Source: Gammaproteobacteria bacterium (GTDB lineage Bacteria; Pseudomonadota; Gammaproteobacteria; GRL18). Taken from it: 12,734 bases of DNA. Position numbers and translations under genes: made by a program. The stretch covers positions 1 to 12,734 of the forward strand of contig WTAX01000292.1 of the NCBI GenBank assembly GCA_013139395.1, read 5' to 3'. Of this stretch, positions 4,932-8,625 are shown piece by piece; the stretch's first letter is position 1; each line of letters opens with the position of its first letter. Under the pieces are notes generated by a model that was not told the origin of the DNA, ran no database searches, and was given only the letters and a program-made list of their open reading frames with translations.

Positions 4932-4948
4932 TTGGTATATTTTTTGCA
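4932..4948 (+). promoter_or_regulatory. Sigma-54 (RpoN)-like -24/-12 promoter for flgA
   Basis: TTGGTATATTTTTTGCA has the essential GG (4934-4935) and GC (4946-4947) separated by exactly 10 nt and the TTTGCA -12 element; the -24 element departs from TGGCAC at two positions. It ends 67 bp before the flgA ATG. Early and middle flagellar genes in Pseudomonas- and Vibrio-type hierarchies use sigma-54 with FleQ/FlrC-type activators, so the position makes sense. Confidence 0.55.
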
Positions 4949-5015: not shown

Positions 5016-5756
5016 ATGACACCTAAAACAAGACAACCCAATCAGTACTATATCAATTATCCATTATTAGCCTGGGGACTGGTGTTAATATCACTATTCT
5101 ATACAAACACCCTGTTTGCCAGTGAATATCACTCTCATGAACAAATTCGTAATGCTGCCGTAGAATTTGTCCGTTCTCAAATTCCTGAAGATGTCACTAT
5201 TAAAGAAATTAAAGCTGGAAAAATTGATTACAGAGTACGTTTTAAGCAATGTTCTCAGTCACTTGAAGTCAATTCAACAACGAAAAAGCACATTGCTAAA
5301 AGCTGGACTATTAGTATTCGTTGTTCTGATATGCCCACCTGGAGCATTTATATTCCGGTTAAAAGCAAACTCAGCAGAAAGATGCTGGTCAGTAATACCA
5401 CCATTACTCGAGGAGAAATGCTCACAAGCCAAAATGTCCAGCTTATAGAACGAGAAATCCGTAATCAAAATTATAATCATTTTTCAGATATAGCCAATGT
5501 AACAGGCCGCGAAGCACGTAGAACCATTCGTCCCGATCGAGTCATTAGCAGCTCTATGCTTCAAGAAGCCTTAATGGTTCATAAAAAAGAAACGGTGTTA
5601 ATTTATGTAAAAAATCACAAACTACAAATTAGCATGAAAGGCACTGCACTTAAAAATGGGCGTTACAATGAAATGATAAAAGTACGCAATAACAGTTCAA
5701 AAAAAGTAATTGACGCCGTGGTAGTTGACAGAGGTATAGTCGCTGTTAATTTTTAA
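5016..5756 (+). CDS. flgA: Flagellar basal body P-ring formation chaperone FlgA
   Basis: FlgA is a periplasmic chaperone for assembly of the P ring (FlgI) around the flagellar rod. The protein (246 residues from this start) has an N-terminal signal segment (hydrophobic LLAWGLVLISLFYTNTLFA, cleavage likely just after) and an N-terminal domain with paired cysteines. A SAF-type domain follows (KMLVSNTTITRGEMLTSQNV), then the FlgA C-terminal beta domain ending with the conserved RNNSSKKVIDAVVVDRGIVAV pattern. The open frame begins earlier, at 4932, but ATG 5016 is preferred: AAAGGA lies 7 nt upstream, a normal signal peptide starts there, and the frame upstream overlaps the sigma-54-like promoter. 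In many gammaproteobacteria flgA is directly followed by flgM and flgN. Here a 140-bp repeat element has inserted between them, with its target duplication overlapping the last two bases of the stop codon. Confidence 0.92.
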   Translation: MTPKTRQPNQYYINYPLLAWGLVLISLFYTNTLFASEYHSHEQIRNAAVEFVRSQIPEDVTIKEIKAGKIDYRVRFKQCSQSLEVNSTTKKHIAKSWTISIRCSDMPTWSIYIPVKSKLSRKMLVSNTTITRGEMLTSQNVQLIEREIRNQNYNHFSDIANVTGREARRTIRPDRVISSSMLQEALMVHKKETVLIYVKNHKLQISMKGTALKNGRYNEMIKVRNNSSKKVIDAVVVDRGIVAVNF

Positions 5757-5762
5757 ATAAAT
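5755..5762. repeat. Left copy of 8-bp target site duplication
   Basis: AAATAAAT directly precedes the left terminal repeat and is identical to 5903-5910 on the other side. It overlaps the last two bases of the flgA stop codon, which stays intact. Confidence 0.85.
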
Positions 5763-5902
5763 GTAACTACTCAGCGTATTCATCTTTTACCCAACTTCGT
5801 CGTTATTTTTGTACTCAAATGGTCACGTATTTGTATATGCTCACATTTTCCGTGCAAAAATGCCTAGAATTTGGGCAAAATCTAAACACGCTGAGTAGTT
5901 AC
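5763..5902. mobile_element. MITE-like near-palindromic element with target duplication
   Basis: The element is 140 bp with perfect 15-bp terminal inverted repeats, GTAACTACTCAGCGT at 5763-5777 and its complement at 5888-5902. The inverted similarity continues inward: 27 of the first 32 bases match, and arms of about 52 bp (5763-5814 against 5852-5902) can be aligned with a one-base gap. It encodes nothing and so would have moved using a transposase supplied elsewhere. Flanking it is a perfect 8-bp direct repeat, AAATAAAT (5755-5762 and 5903-5910), the expected mark of transposition. Ends beginning GTAA and an 8-bp duplication recall IS66-type elements, but that assignment is a guess. As RNA it would fold into a long imperfect hairpin and could end or process flgA transcripts. 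It stops 20 bp before the flgM sigma-28 promoter without damaging it. Confidence 0.88.
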
Positions 5903-5910
5903 AAATAAAT
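5903..5910. repeat. Right copy of 8-bp target site duplication
   Basis: AAATAAAT directly follows the right terminal repeat and matches 5755-5762 exactly. Confidence 0.85.
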
Positions 5911-5976: not shown

Positions 5977-6297
5977 ATGCCAATTAATATTAGTAATTCA
6001 ACAAATAATACATCACAAACTAACAGAACAAATGAACAAAAGCATGTAAGAATTGTTCAAACAACTTCTGAAGGTAGAACTGAGCAATCAGACAAAGCGA
6101 CGCTTAAACAAGATTCCGTCAATTTGACCGATTCTGCTCTGCGTATAAAAGCATTGGAAGAGCAGATTTCACGCCTGCCAATTATTGACACGCAAAAAGT
6201 TGAACAAGTTAGAAGTTCACTTAGTGATGGTACATTTGAGTTTAACTCAGAACGAATCGCAGAAAAAATGATTAATTATGAAAAAGAGTTAGCCTAA
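5977..6297 (+). CDS. flgM: Anti-sigma-28 factor FlgM
   Basis: FlgM binds FliA (sigma-28) and keeps it inactive until the hook-basal body is finished, when FlgM is exported through the flagellum. The protein has 106 residues, the normal size. Its first half (1-45) is polar, Asn/Thr/Ser-rich and probably disordered, as expected for an export-competent protein. The C-terminal half carries the FlgM pattern DSVNLTDSA followed by helices LEEQISRLPIIDTQKVEQVR and FNSERIAEKMINYEKEL, which form the FliA-binding region. It starts at ATG 5977 with GGGAG 11 nt upstream, directly downstream of its sigma-28 promoter. flgN follows after 51 bp and is probably cotranscribed. Confidence 0.92.
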   Translation: MPINISNSTNNTSQTNRTNEQKHVRIVQTTSEGRTEQSDKATLKQDSVNLTDSALRIKALEEQISRLPIIDTQKVEQVRSSLSDGTFEFNSERIAEKMINYEKELA

Positions 6298-7943: not shown

Positions 7944-8020
7944 GCCCCCGTAGCTCAGCTGGATAGAGCGACCCCCTCCTAAGGGGTAGGCCGGACGTTC
8001 GAATCGTCTCGGGGGCACCA
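7944..8020 (+). tRNA. tRNA-Arg (anticodon CCT)
   Basis: The cloverleaf can be drawn by hand. The acceptor stem GCCCCCG (7944-7950) pairs perfectly with CGGGGGC (8010-8016), with discriminator A8017 and encoded CCA at 8018-8020. The anticodon stem ACCCC/GGGGT (7971-7975 with 7983-7987) encloses the loop CTCCTAA, giving anticodon CCT, which reads AGG arginine codons. The T arm has loop TTCGAAT and a 5-bp stem with one G-T pair. The D arm begins GCTCAGCTGGATAGAGC. It stands alone on the plus strand, 204 bp after the ycgR-like gene, and no 3'-end duplication that would mark an integrated element is visible in the window. Confidence 0.97.
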
Positions 8021-8149: not shown

Positions 8150-8554
8150 ATGACAGTTAAAAAATTTATCACTAATCCATCAGCAATTAGCTTGATGCCA
8201 TTCATGCTGTTCTTTTTAGTCACACTGACTGGCTGTTCACCACACCCGGGTGCAGGCAATTGGAAAGCAGAGGGTAGTAATCCACTCAATGTATCTCGTA
8301 TCAACATCATTTATGAAGGTACTGCCGATTTTTATGTTGATGGTAAAGAAGACGCTATTCGTCGCTGTTTTTGGTCCGCTGTCGCTGAGAATACCATGCA
8401 GTTACAATGTGTTTATGCAGACGATACTGACAAAAAAGTAAGTTATCAATTTATTGTCACAGAAAAAGGCCATGCAGACTTACTTCTGGATGATAAAGTA
8501 ATCGGTCGGTTTTTAGCACAAGCACCTGAGCCGGCACCAGAAAAAAAGAAATAA
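8150..8554 (+). CDS. Small predicted lipoprotein of unknown function
   Basis: The protein has 134 residues. A signal sequence with hydrophobic core (residues 13-27) ends in LTGC, so Cys29 should be lipidated, and the next residue Ser favours the outer membrane. The mature part (about 105 residues) starts GAGNWKAEG and alternates hydrophobic and polar residues in a way that suggests a small beta-sheet domain. It has Cys74 and Cys87, which could form a disulphide, and ends in a Pro/Glu/Lys tail (PEPAPEKKK). I do not recognise a named family. The ribosome site is weak (AGGG about 13 nt before the ATG). A fragment of the MITE family seen after flgA begins within a few bases of the stop codon. No operon partner is obvious; the Tim44-like gene begins 71 bp downstream. 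Confidence 0.75.
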   Translation: MTVKKFITNPSAISLMPFMLFFLVTLTGCSPHPGAGNWKAEGSNPLNVSRINIIYEGTADFYVDGKEDAIRRCFWSAVAENTMQLQCVYADDTDKKVSYQFIVTEKGHADLLLDDKVIGRFLAQAPEPAPEKKK

Positions 8555-8558
8555 ATTA

Positions 8559-8582
8559 GCAACTACTCAGCGTATTATTTAC
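8559..8582. mobile_element. Fragment of the MITE family (one end only)
   Basis: AACTACTCAGCGTATT (8561-8576) is identical to bases 3-18 of the left end of the 140-bp element at 5763. No matching opposite end is present nearby. As with the full copy, it follows AAATAAAT (8549-8556) at a gene's stop codon, here with two extra bases between. It is probably an end left by deletion of the rest, or a very short derivative. Confidence 0.6.
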
Positions 8583-8625
8583 AAAAATTAAACCATTAGT
8601 ATCATTTTTAACCAGAGATTTTTCT

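Follow-up and report, generated by a model that had tools for sequence, protein, structure and literature searches.

A MITE with IS66-type ends between flgA and the flgM promoter of a gammaproteobacterium, from a family with a maintained hairpin and optional modules

Introduction

Insertion sequences of the IS66 family have ends that start with GTAA, as given in the available part of one publication (PMC12888890), and in the available part of another a value of 8 is listed for two IS66 elements in a table column taken here as the direct repeat (PMC3281130). Among small repeats, BOX of Streptococcus pneumoniae is modular, with a predicted RNA stem-loop and one unit, boxB, that can be absent or repeated (PMC3049150, available part). 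For QMITE2 of Coxiella burnetii, as for MITEs in general, descriptions give 7-9-bp direct repeats, a full-length hairpin and a preference for 3'-UTRs, and the ERIC and Correia repeats are short palindromic sequences with many intergenic copies that are able to affect mRNA (both in the available part of PMC10969869). A MITE of 161 bp with a 4-bp repeat has been reported from within a gene fragment next to a remnant of IS66 (PMC12888890, available part), and MITEPye1 has been assigned to IS1182 (PMC11578231, available part). The MITEs of Thiomargarita were also considered as a match for the element described here and were rejected, since their repeats, as far as given in the available part of PMC4853749, differ from those of the element.

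The DNA analysed here, referred to as the window, is a stretch of 12,734 nucleotides (contig WTAX01000292.1, assembly GCA_013139395.1) from a gammaproteobacterium of the GRL18 lineage. It carries a 140-bp element between flgA and the promoter of flgM, of a kind called type A below. The element resembles the single-ORF IS66 insertion sequences in its ends starting with GTAA, its 8-bp duplications and the agreement of 14/15 bases with the end of one such insertion sequence, but it is only 140 bp long, has no transposase and has an interior unrelated to the IS copies seen. Its ends and target duplications presumably also differ from those of ERIC and Correia. Where BOX has a single unit that is absent or repeated, the element family has three modules at three fixed sites in eight combinations, together with 8-bp duplications. 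QMITE2 is set apart by its description, with longer terminal repeats of 23-29 bp (PMC10969869, available part). In the open-licence literature of PubMed Central, a MITE that combines IS66-type ends with 8-bp duplications was not found, and neither was a description of this element, including in the available parts of PMC6382973, PMC3189936, PMC2246112, PMC9769881 and PMC6807381; the three literature matches to the end sequence belonged, judged by title, to unrelated subjects.

The element between flgA and flgM

The features of the junction are collected in Table 1; flgN and a PilZ-domain gene also lie on the + strand of the window. In the list of open reading frames, a TTG at 4932, further upstream, is an alternative open start for flgA. 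The 15-bp perfect inverted ends and the 8-bp target duplication reported in the first-pass annotation were confirmed by direct reading of the sequence, and the imperfect pairing of the arms was found again (46 nt at 78%, flanks included). The claim that the element is non-coding also holds, the longest ORF entirely inside it being 29 aa. The element had been placed exactly at the flgA stop codon, and this is partly right: the duplication covers the last two bases of the stop, whereas the element itself starts 6 bp after it. The flgM promoter, named from what we take to be the sigma-28 consensus, is intact and 20 bp from the element, as had been stated. The element is a MITE: it is short and non-coding, has 15/15 terminal repeats and an 8/8 duplication, is present in many copies, and has empty sites in relatives.

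Table 1. Features of the flgA-flgM junction (positions in the window) and IS66 elements compared with the MITE
Feature	Position or locus	Strand	Remarks
flgA (P-ring chaperone)	5016..5756	+	Pfam ChapFlgA 8.6e-30; ORF list; stop TAA at 5754-5756
Target duplication, left 8-bp copy AAATAAAT	5755..5762	.	overlaps flgA stop codon
Type-A MITE, 140 bp	5763..5902	+	form without modules
Left terminal inverted repeat GTAACTACTCAGCGT	5763..5777	+	
Right terminal inverted repeat, ACGCTGAGTAGTTAC in + reading	5888..5902	-	15/15 identical to left
Target duplication, right copy AAATAAAT	5903..5910	.	8/8
Sigma-28-like promoter TAAAG-N14-GCCGATAA	5923..5949	+	upstream of flgM; intact; from sequence
flgM (anti-sigma-28 factor)	5977..6297	+	Pfam FlgM 2.4e-13
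IS66 element, 1731 bp	L157		both ends GTAACTGCTCAGCGT; contig edge one base further on
IS66 element, 1721 bp	L139		perfect 8-bp duplication ATAAAATG
IS66 element, 1714 bp	L140		transposase frame broken; no duplication
One IS66 end GTAACTACTCAGTGT	L148		14/15
IS66 element in MC-11, 1489 bp	L057		no duplication

Copies, target duplications and distribution

The proposal that further copies would be present in the genome was borne out. With up to two mismatches, the 15-bp end has 152 matches in the element's own genome (73 + 79), against 4 (2 + 2) for a reversed control, and 113 against 12 in genome BB4 (G001; also G011, with identical contig places). A DNA search of the own genome gave two further full-length type-A copies, one on contig C523 that is 98% identical and has the duplication AAAACTTA, and one of 181 bp on C412 with the duplication AATAAGAT. 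Of 35 full-length type-A copies, 24 have a duplication of at least 7/8, 17 of them perfect. The copy counts that follow come from a sample made up of 60 of the 550 contigs of the own genome and 40 regions of BB4, picked among the first 100 matches listed for each. Among 87 end pairs in the sampled stretches of the two genomes, a number that includes short or chance pairs, 86 have both flanks, and 60 of these show a duplication of at least 7/8, compared with a mean of 1.6 and a maximum of 6 in 1000 shuffles. The 45 perfect duplications among the end pairs are 87% A+T. At L239:2024-2068, a pair of ends that together span only 45 bp is flanked by AAGATGTA as a perfect duplication of 8 bp; should the pair move as a unit, it would be an extremely short element.

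A cousin, type B, dominates the own-genome sample, with 32 copies against 3 of type A. It is mostly 149 bp long, and in common with type A it has its ends, a AAATANGTGACCAT stretch and 18 bp at one end. Just beyond the right end of two type-B copies, extra end-like copies are present (L226:4698-4718 and L233:6071-6082), as if the ends had been duplicated. The window also contains type-B material: from 7736 onward there is a truncated end, ATAACTTCTCAGCCTATTGTTAACAAAAAG, whose TAA serves the PilZ-domain gene as stop codon, and a solitary end, GCAACTACTCAGCGTATTATTTACAAAAAT, lies at 8559-8588, 4 bp past the stop codon of ORF 8150-8554. A tRNA gene (7944-8017), the sole Rfam match in the window at gathering score, separates the type-B remnant from the ORF that follows.

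At E <= 0.001, element matches were found in 22 of 144 genomes, some with short or end-only matches only: 20 of the 24 genomes of the same family (own included) and 2 of the 120 outside it. When genomes were drawn evenly from the class, 11 of 369 gave a match, and 8 of these 11 belong to five families other than that of the element. These numbers are lower bounds, since few candidates per genome were scored. Plasmid records gave no match to the element and viral contigs none to its exact ends, so that no vehicle was found.

IS66-type ends and the probable source of mobility

The ends starting with GTAA and the 8-bp duplications are as in IS66-family insertion sequences. The first-pass annotation had suggested a search for a full insertion sequence with the same ends. 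Relatives do contain single-ORF IS66 elements, a kind that presumably goes by the name ISBst12-like, with ends that agree at 14/15, but none was found in the own genome. Four of the loci in Table 1 (L157, L139, L140 and L148) are from genomes of the element's own family. The ends of L157 match the end of the flgA copy at 14/15 and that of the C523 copy at 15/15, and the ends of L139 match the flgA copy's end at 11/15 and 13/15 (counted by eye). The transposases of L157, L139 and L057 score above cut-off for both Pfam DDE_Tnp_IS66 and the NCBIfam IS66 model. An 8-bp duplication is present in one of the three testable IS66 copies (L139).

The Pfam family PF03050 is found above cut-off in 12 of the 24 family genomes. 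The own genome (79% complete, 550 contigs) is not among them, and the search for an IS66 transposase there gave none. A candidate parent there, C505, was dropped, as its sub-threshold IS66 match proved to be a transposase of the IS6 family (NCBIfam, 211 bits). What the element has in common with the IS66 copies seen is limited to the terminal 11-16 bp, and interior matches are no better than E 0.4. The idea of a simple internal deletion of a known insertion sequence is not supported by ends alone that match the IS copies seen, and because the interior is unlike these copies, the element is called IS66-ended rather than a deletion derivative. In a genome of the same genus (G019), 68 matches to the IS66 transposase family are present together with a single partial type-A match of 46 bp.

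A single-ORF IS66 transposase of the DDE type, acting in trans, probably recognizes the GTAACTACTCAGCGT ends and inserts the element into AT-rich 8-bp targets, which would be duplicated in the process. The copy beside flgA would then have gone into AAATAAAT, across the flgA stop codon, as a chance landing at an AT-rich site where the gene ends, and would be tolerated there. The insertion would postdate the split of this lineage from its nearest sampled relative.

Optional modules

The type-A family carries three optional modules, M1, M2 and M3, which are insertions of 20, 21 and 21 nt, respectively, at fixed places; the reverse of M2 is similar to M3. All eight combinations were seen among the 38 sampled type-A copies that are 100 bp or longer (35 from BB4 and 3 from the own genome): none (22 copies, as in the copy beside flgA), M1 (1), M2 (1), M3 (4, one of which is a 137-bp deletion form), M1+M2 (1), M1+M3 (4), M2+M3 (1) and all three (4). 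The four rarest combinations are represented by one copy each, every one with a perfect duplication. Helical phasing had been considered as the source of the 20-21-bp steps in length and was dropped, because the three defined modules explain these steps.

In the sample, M1 is confined to counted type-A copies (10/10), and two of nine M2 and one of 14 M3 occurrences lie outside the counted set, at L171 and L198, where each is no more than about 100 bp away from a type-A end. A search of all of BB4 with 18 nt of M3, allowing three mismatches, gave 24 matches, against 2 for the control. Comparison by hand with the 100 element ends listed showed that all 17 matches with at most one mismatch adjoin such an end, and that one of the remaining seven does so and six do not.

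Hairpin and compensatory changes

As RNA, the element (141 nt, with one flanking base) folds at -50.9 kcal/mol on the + strand (z -9.28) and at -58.4 kcal/mol on the - strand (z -11.63), and on either strand none of 200 shuffles folds as well. For covariation, 30 of the 35 full-length type-A copies were aligned, five longer ones (160-181 bp) being set aside. The 38 consensus pairs are paired in 96.5% of cases, compared with 91.3% in shuffles. Changes on both sides are present at 13 of the 38 pairs, across copies and species, and 56 individual cells show such changes, compared with 15.7 in shuffles; for both measures, none of 500 shuffles was as high. The signal collapses when the pairing partner is slid. 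On the structure of the other strand, changes on both sides were found at 15 of 49 pairs, and on a tree of the 30 copies, 20 changes from one Watson-Crick pair to another were inferred at the 35 pairs common to both strands. The imperfect hairpin is thus maintained through compensatory changes across copies and species, which goes beyond an ordinary MITE.

Two explanations of this upkeep have to be weighed. Quasi-palindrome correction is a template switch between the two arms of a hairpin, and it could produce both the paired changes and the precise loss of modules without any selection on the fold. The arms remain palindromic, and the 4 nt (TTYT or AAAA) that replace an absent M2 or M3 largely complement the opposite arm, both of which speak for such copying. 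However, template switching should erase mismatches, yet a tandem G.A/A.G mismatch is kept whole on the better-folding strand in 28 of 30 copies, and the mismatch at position 33/110 is retained as well (G.A in 21, A.G in 4 and another state in 5 of the 30). Template switching is therefore a possible source of the pattern, short of a probable one.

Alternatively, selection could act on the folded form of one strand, be it for mobility, for stability or for tolerance by the host, the element being a mobile structured RNA or single-stranded hairpin. This reading is compatible with the IS66-type MITE explanation and adds to it. In addition to the compensatory changes and the intact tandem mismatch, it is favored by the constant direction of the asymmetry: the strand opposite flgA is the better fold in 35/35 type-A copies, and the homologous strand in 30/31 type-B copies. 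These fold and covariation counts are not independent, because the copies are related. Against selection, further pair types, one of the five covariation measures, are not above shuffles (175/500 as high), the orientation of copies beside host genes has no clear bias, and correction of one arm from the other could also yield paired changes. One-sided changes on the tree favor wobble pairs on the - strand over the + strand by only 15 to 6 (p 0.08), next to 13 other mismatches, and this polymorphism evidence of strand-specific selection is suggestive only. A selected fold is thus a tentative reading with rather low odds. Rather unlikely, too, is the broader proposal that the success of the MITE family depends on a strand-specific folded form (RNA or single-stranded DNA) selected across species, in which compensatory changes and non-canonical pairs would preserve the hairpin and three interchangeable hairpin modules of 20-21 nt, reassorting from copy to copy, would rebuild it. 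The data do not discriminate between a selected folded strand and correction from arm to arm.

Placement beside genes

Copies favor the 3' ends of genes: with genes called by simple ORF rules, the distance to the stop upstream is shorter than that to the start downstream at 31 of 42 sites between tandem genes (25 type A, 17 type B; p 0.003). For type-A copies beside a gene 3' end, the TAA within GTAA serves as the stop codon in 7 of 31. At gene 3' ends, the better-folding strand is in the mRNA in 14 of 31 type-A copies (the other strand in 17) and in 14 of 25 type-B copies (the other in 11). Before counting, nine copies of type B at the edges of contigs were dropped, as was one overlapping copy of type A. 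For copies no more than 60 bp from the stop, the worse-folding strand is somewhat more frequent in type A (16:9, p 0.23) and the better-folding one in type B (9:8). With no clear orientation preference, a directional role at the 3' end of mRNAs is not indicated.

It had been suggested that the insertion terminates flgA transcription or stabilizes the flgA mRNA, by which flgA would be uncoupled from flgMN. A very stable hairpin does lie directly 3' of flgA, and effects on mRNA have been reported for other bacterial MITEs (PMC10969869, available part). The terminator part of this suggestion is not supported, as no U-tract follows the hairpin in the flgA direction: the element does not have the combination of a GC stem with a U-tract after it that marks an intrinsic terminator, and a scan gave no terminator-like site. 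In addition, relatives with the same gene order lack the element, and the copies at gene 3' ends have no clear orientation bias. Such a role at flgA is accordingly unlikely. The flgA stop and the flgM promoter have been left intact, so that the local effect would probably be near neutral, and any effect on flagellar expression would probably be small.

Related flgA-flgM junctions

FlgA was present in 34 of the 57 genomes searched, own included, and 15 junctions besides the own one were compared (loci L075-L087, L089 and L090; the set leaves out L088, where the match stops near the contig end, loci from L091 on and matches without a locus). In these relatives flgA and flgM are adjacent, as the first-pass annotation had expected, and the element widens the gap. 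An end search found the element at none of the 15 junctions, and a sigma-28-like promoter match (up to two substitutions) at all 15. In the closest relative (78% FlgA identity), the joined flanks align with a score of 193, compared with 118.5 with the element included, giving the clean empty site that had been predicted. The score with the element was higher than with joined flanks in G015, G010, G014 and G029 and nearly equal in G027; these five have long junctions that make the score uninformative, and their emptiness rests on the end search. At the G024 junction, there is a single end-like match, with up to three mismatches allowed, that has no partner.

The idea that the element is a regulatory RNA or attenuator conserved at the flagellar locus, to which the intergenic place and the hairpin would fit, is refuted by the absence from these 15 junctions, the many copies at other sites and the lack of an Rfam match for the element at gathering score, and its probability is negligible.

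Conclusions

The preferred reading, to which a probability of roughly 0.87 is given, is that the element is a non-autonomous IS66-type MITE that landed across the flgA stop codon after the split from the nearest sampled relative and is near-neutral there; mobilization by an IS66 transposase, the timing of the insertion and its neutrality are inferred. The family appears to be moved by IS66-type transposases. It is unusual among MITEs in that its hairpin is kept by paired mutations and in that optional modules of 20 bases occur in every combination. Since no IS66-ended MITE was found in the open-licence literature, a large repeat family of Gammaproteobacteria for which no name was found is hereby tied to a probable parent. 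With its compensatory changes and its eight module combinations, the family provides a natural data set for the question of why bacterial MITEs stay palindromic, be it through selection on the folded strand or through copying from arm to arm.
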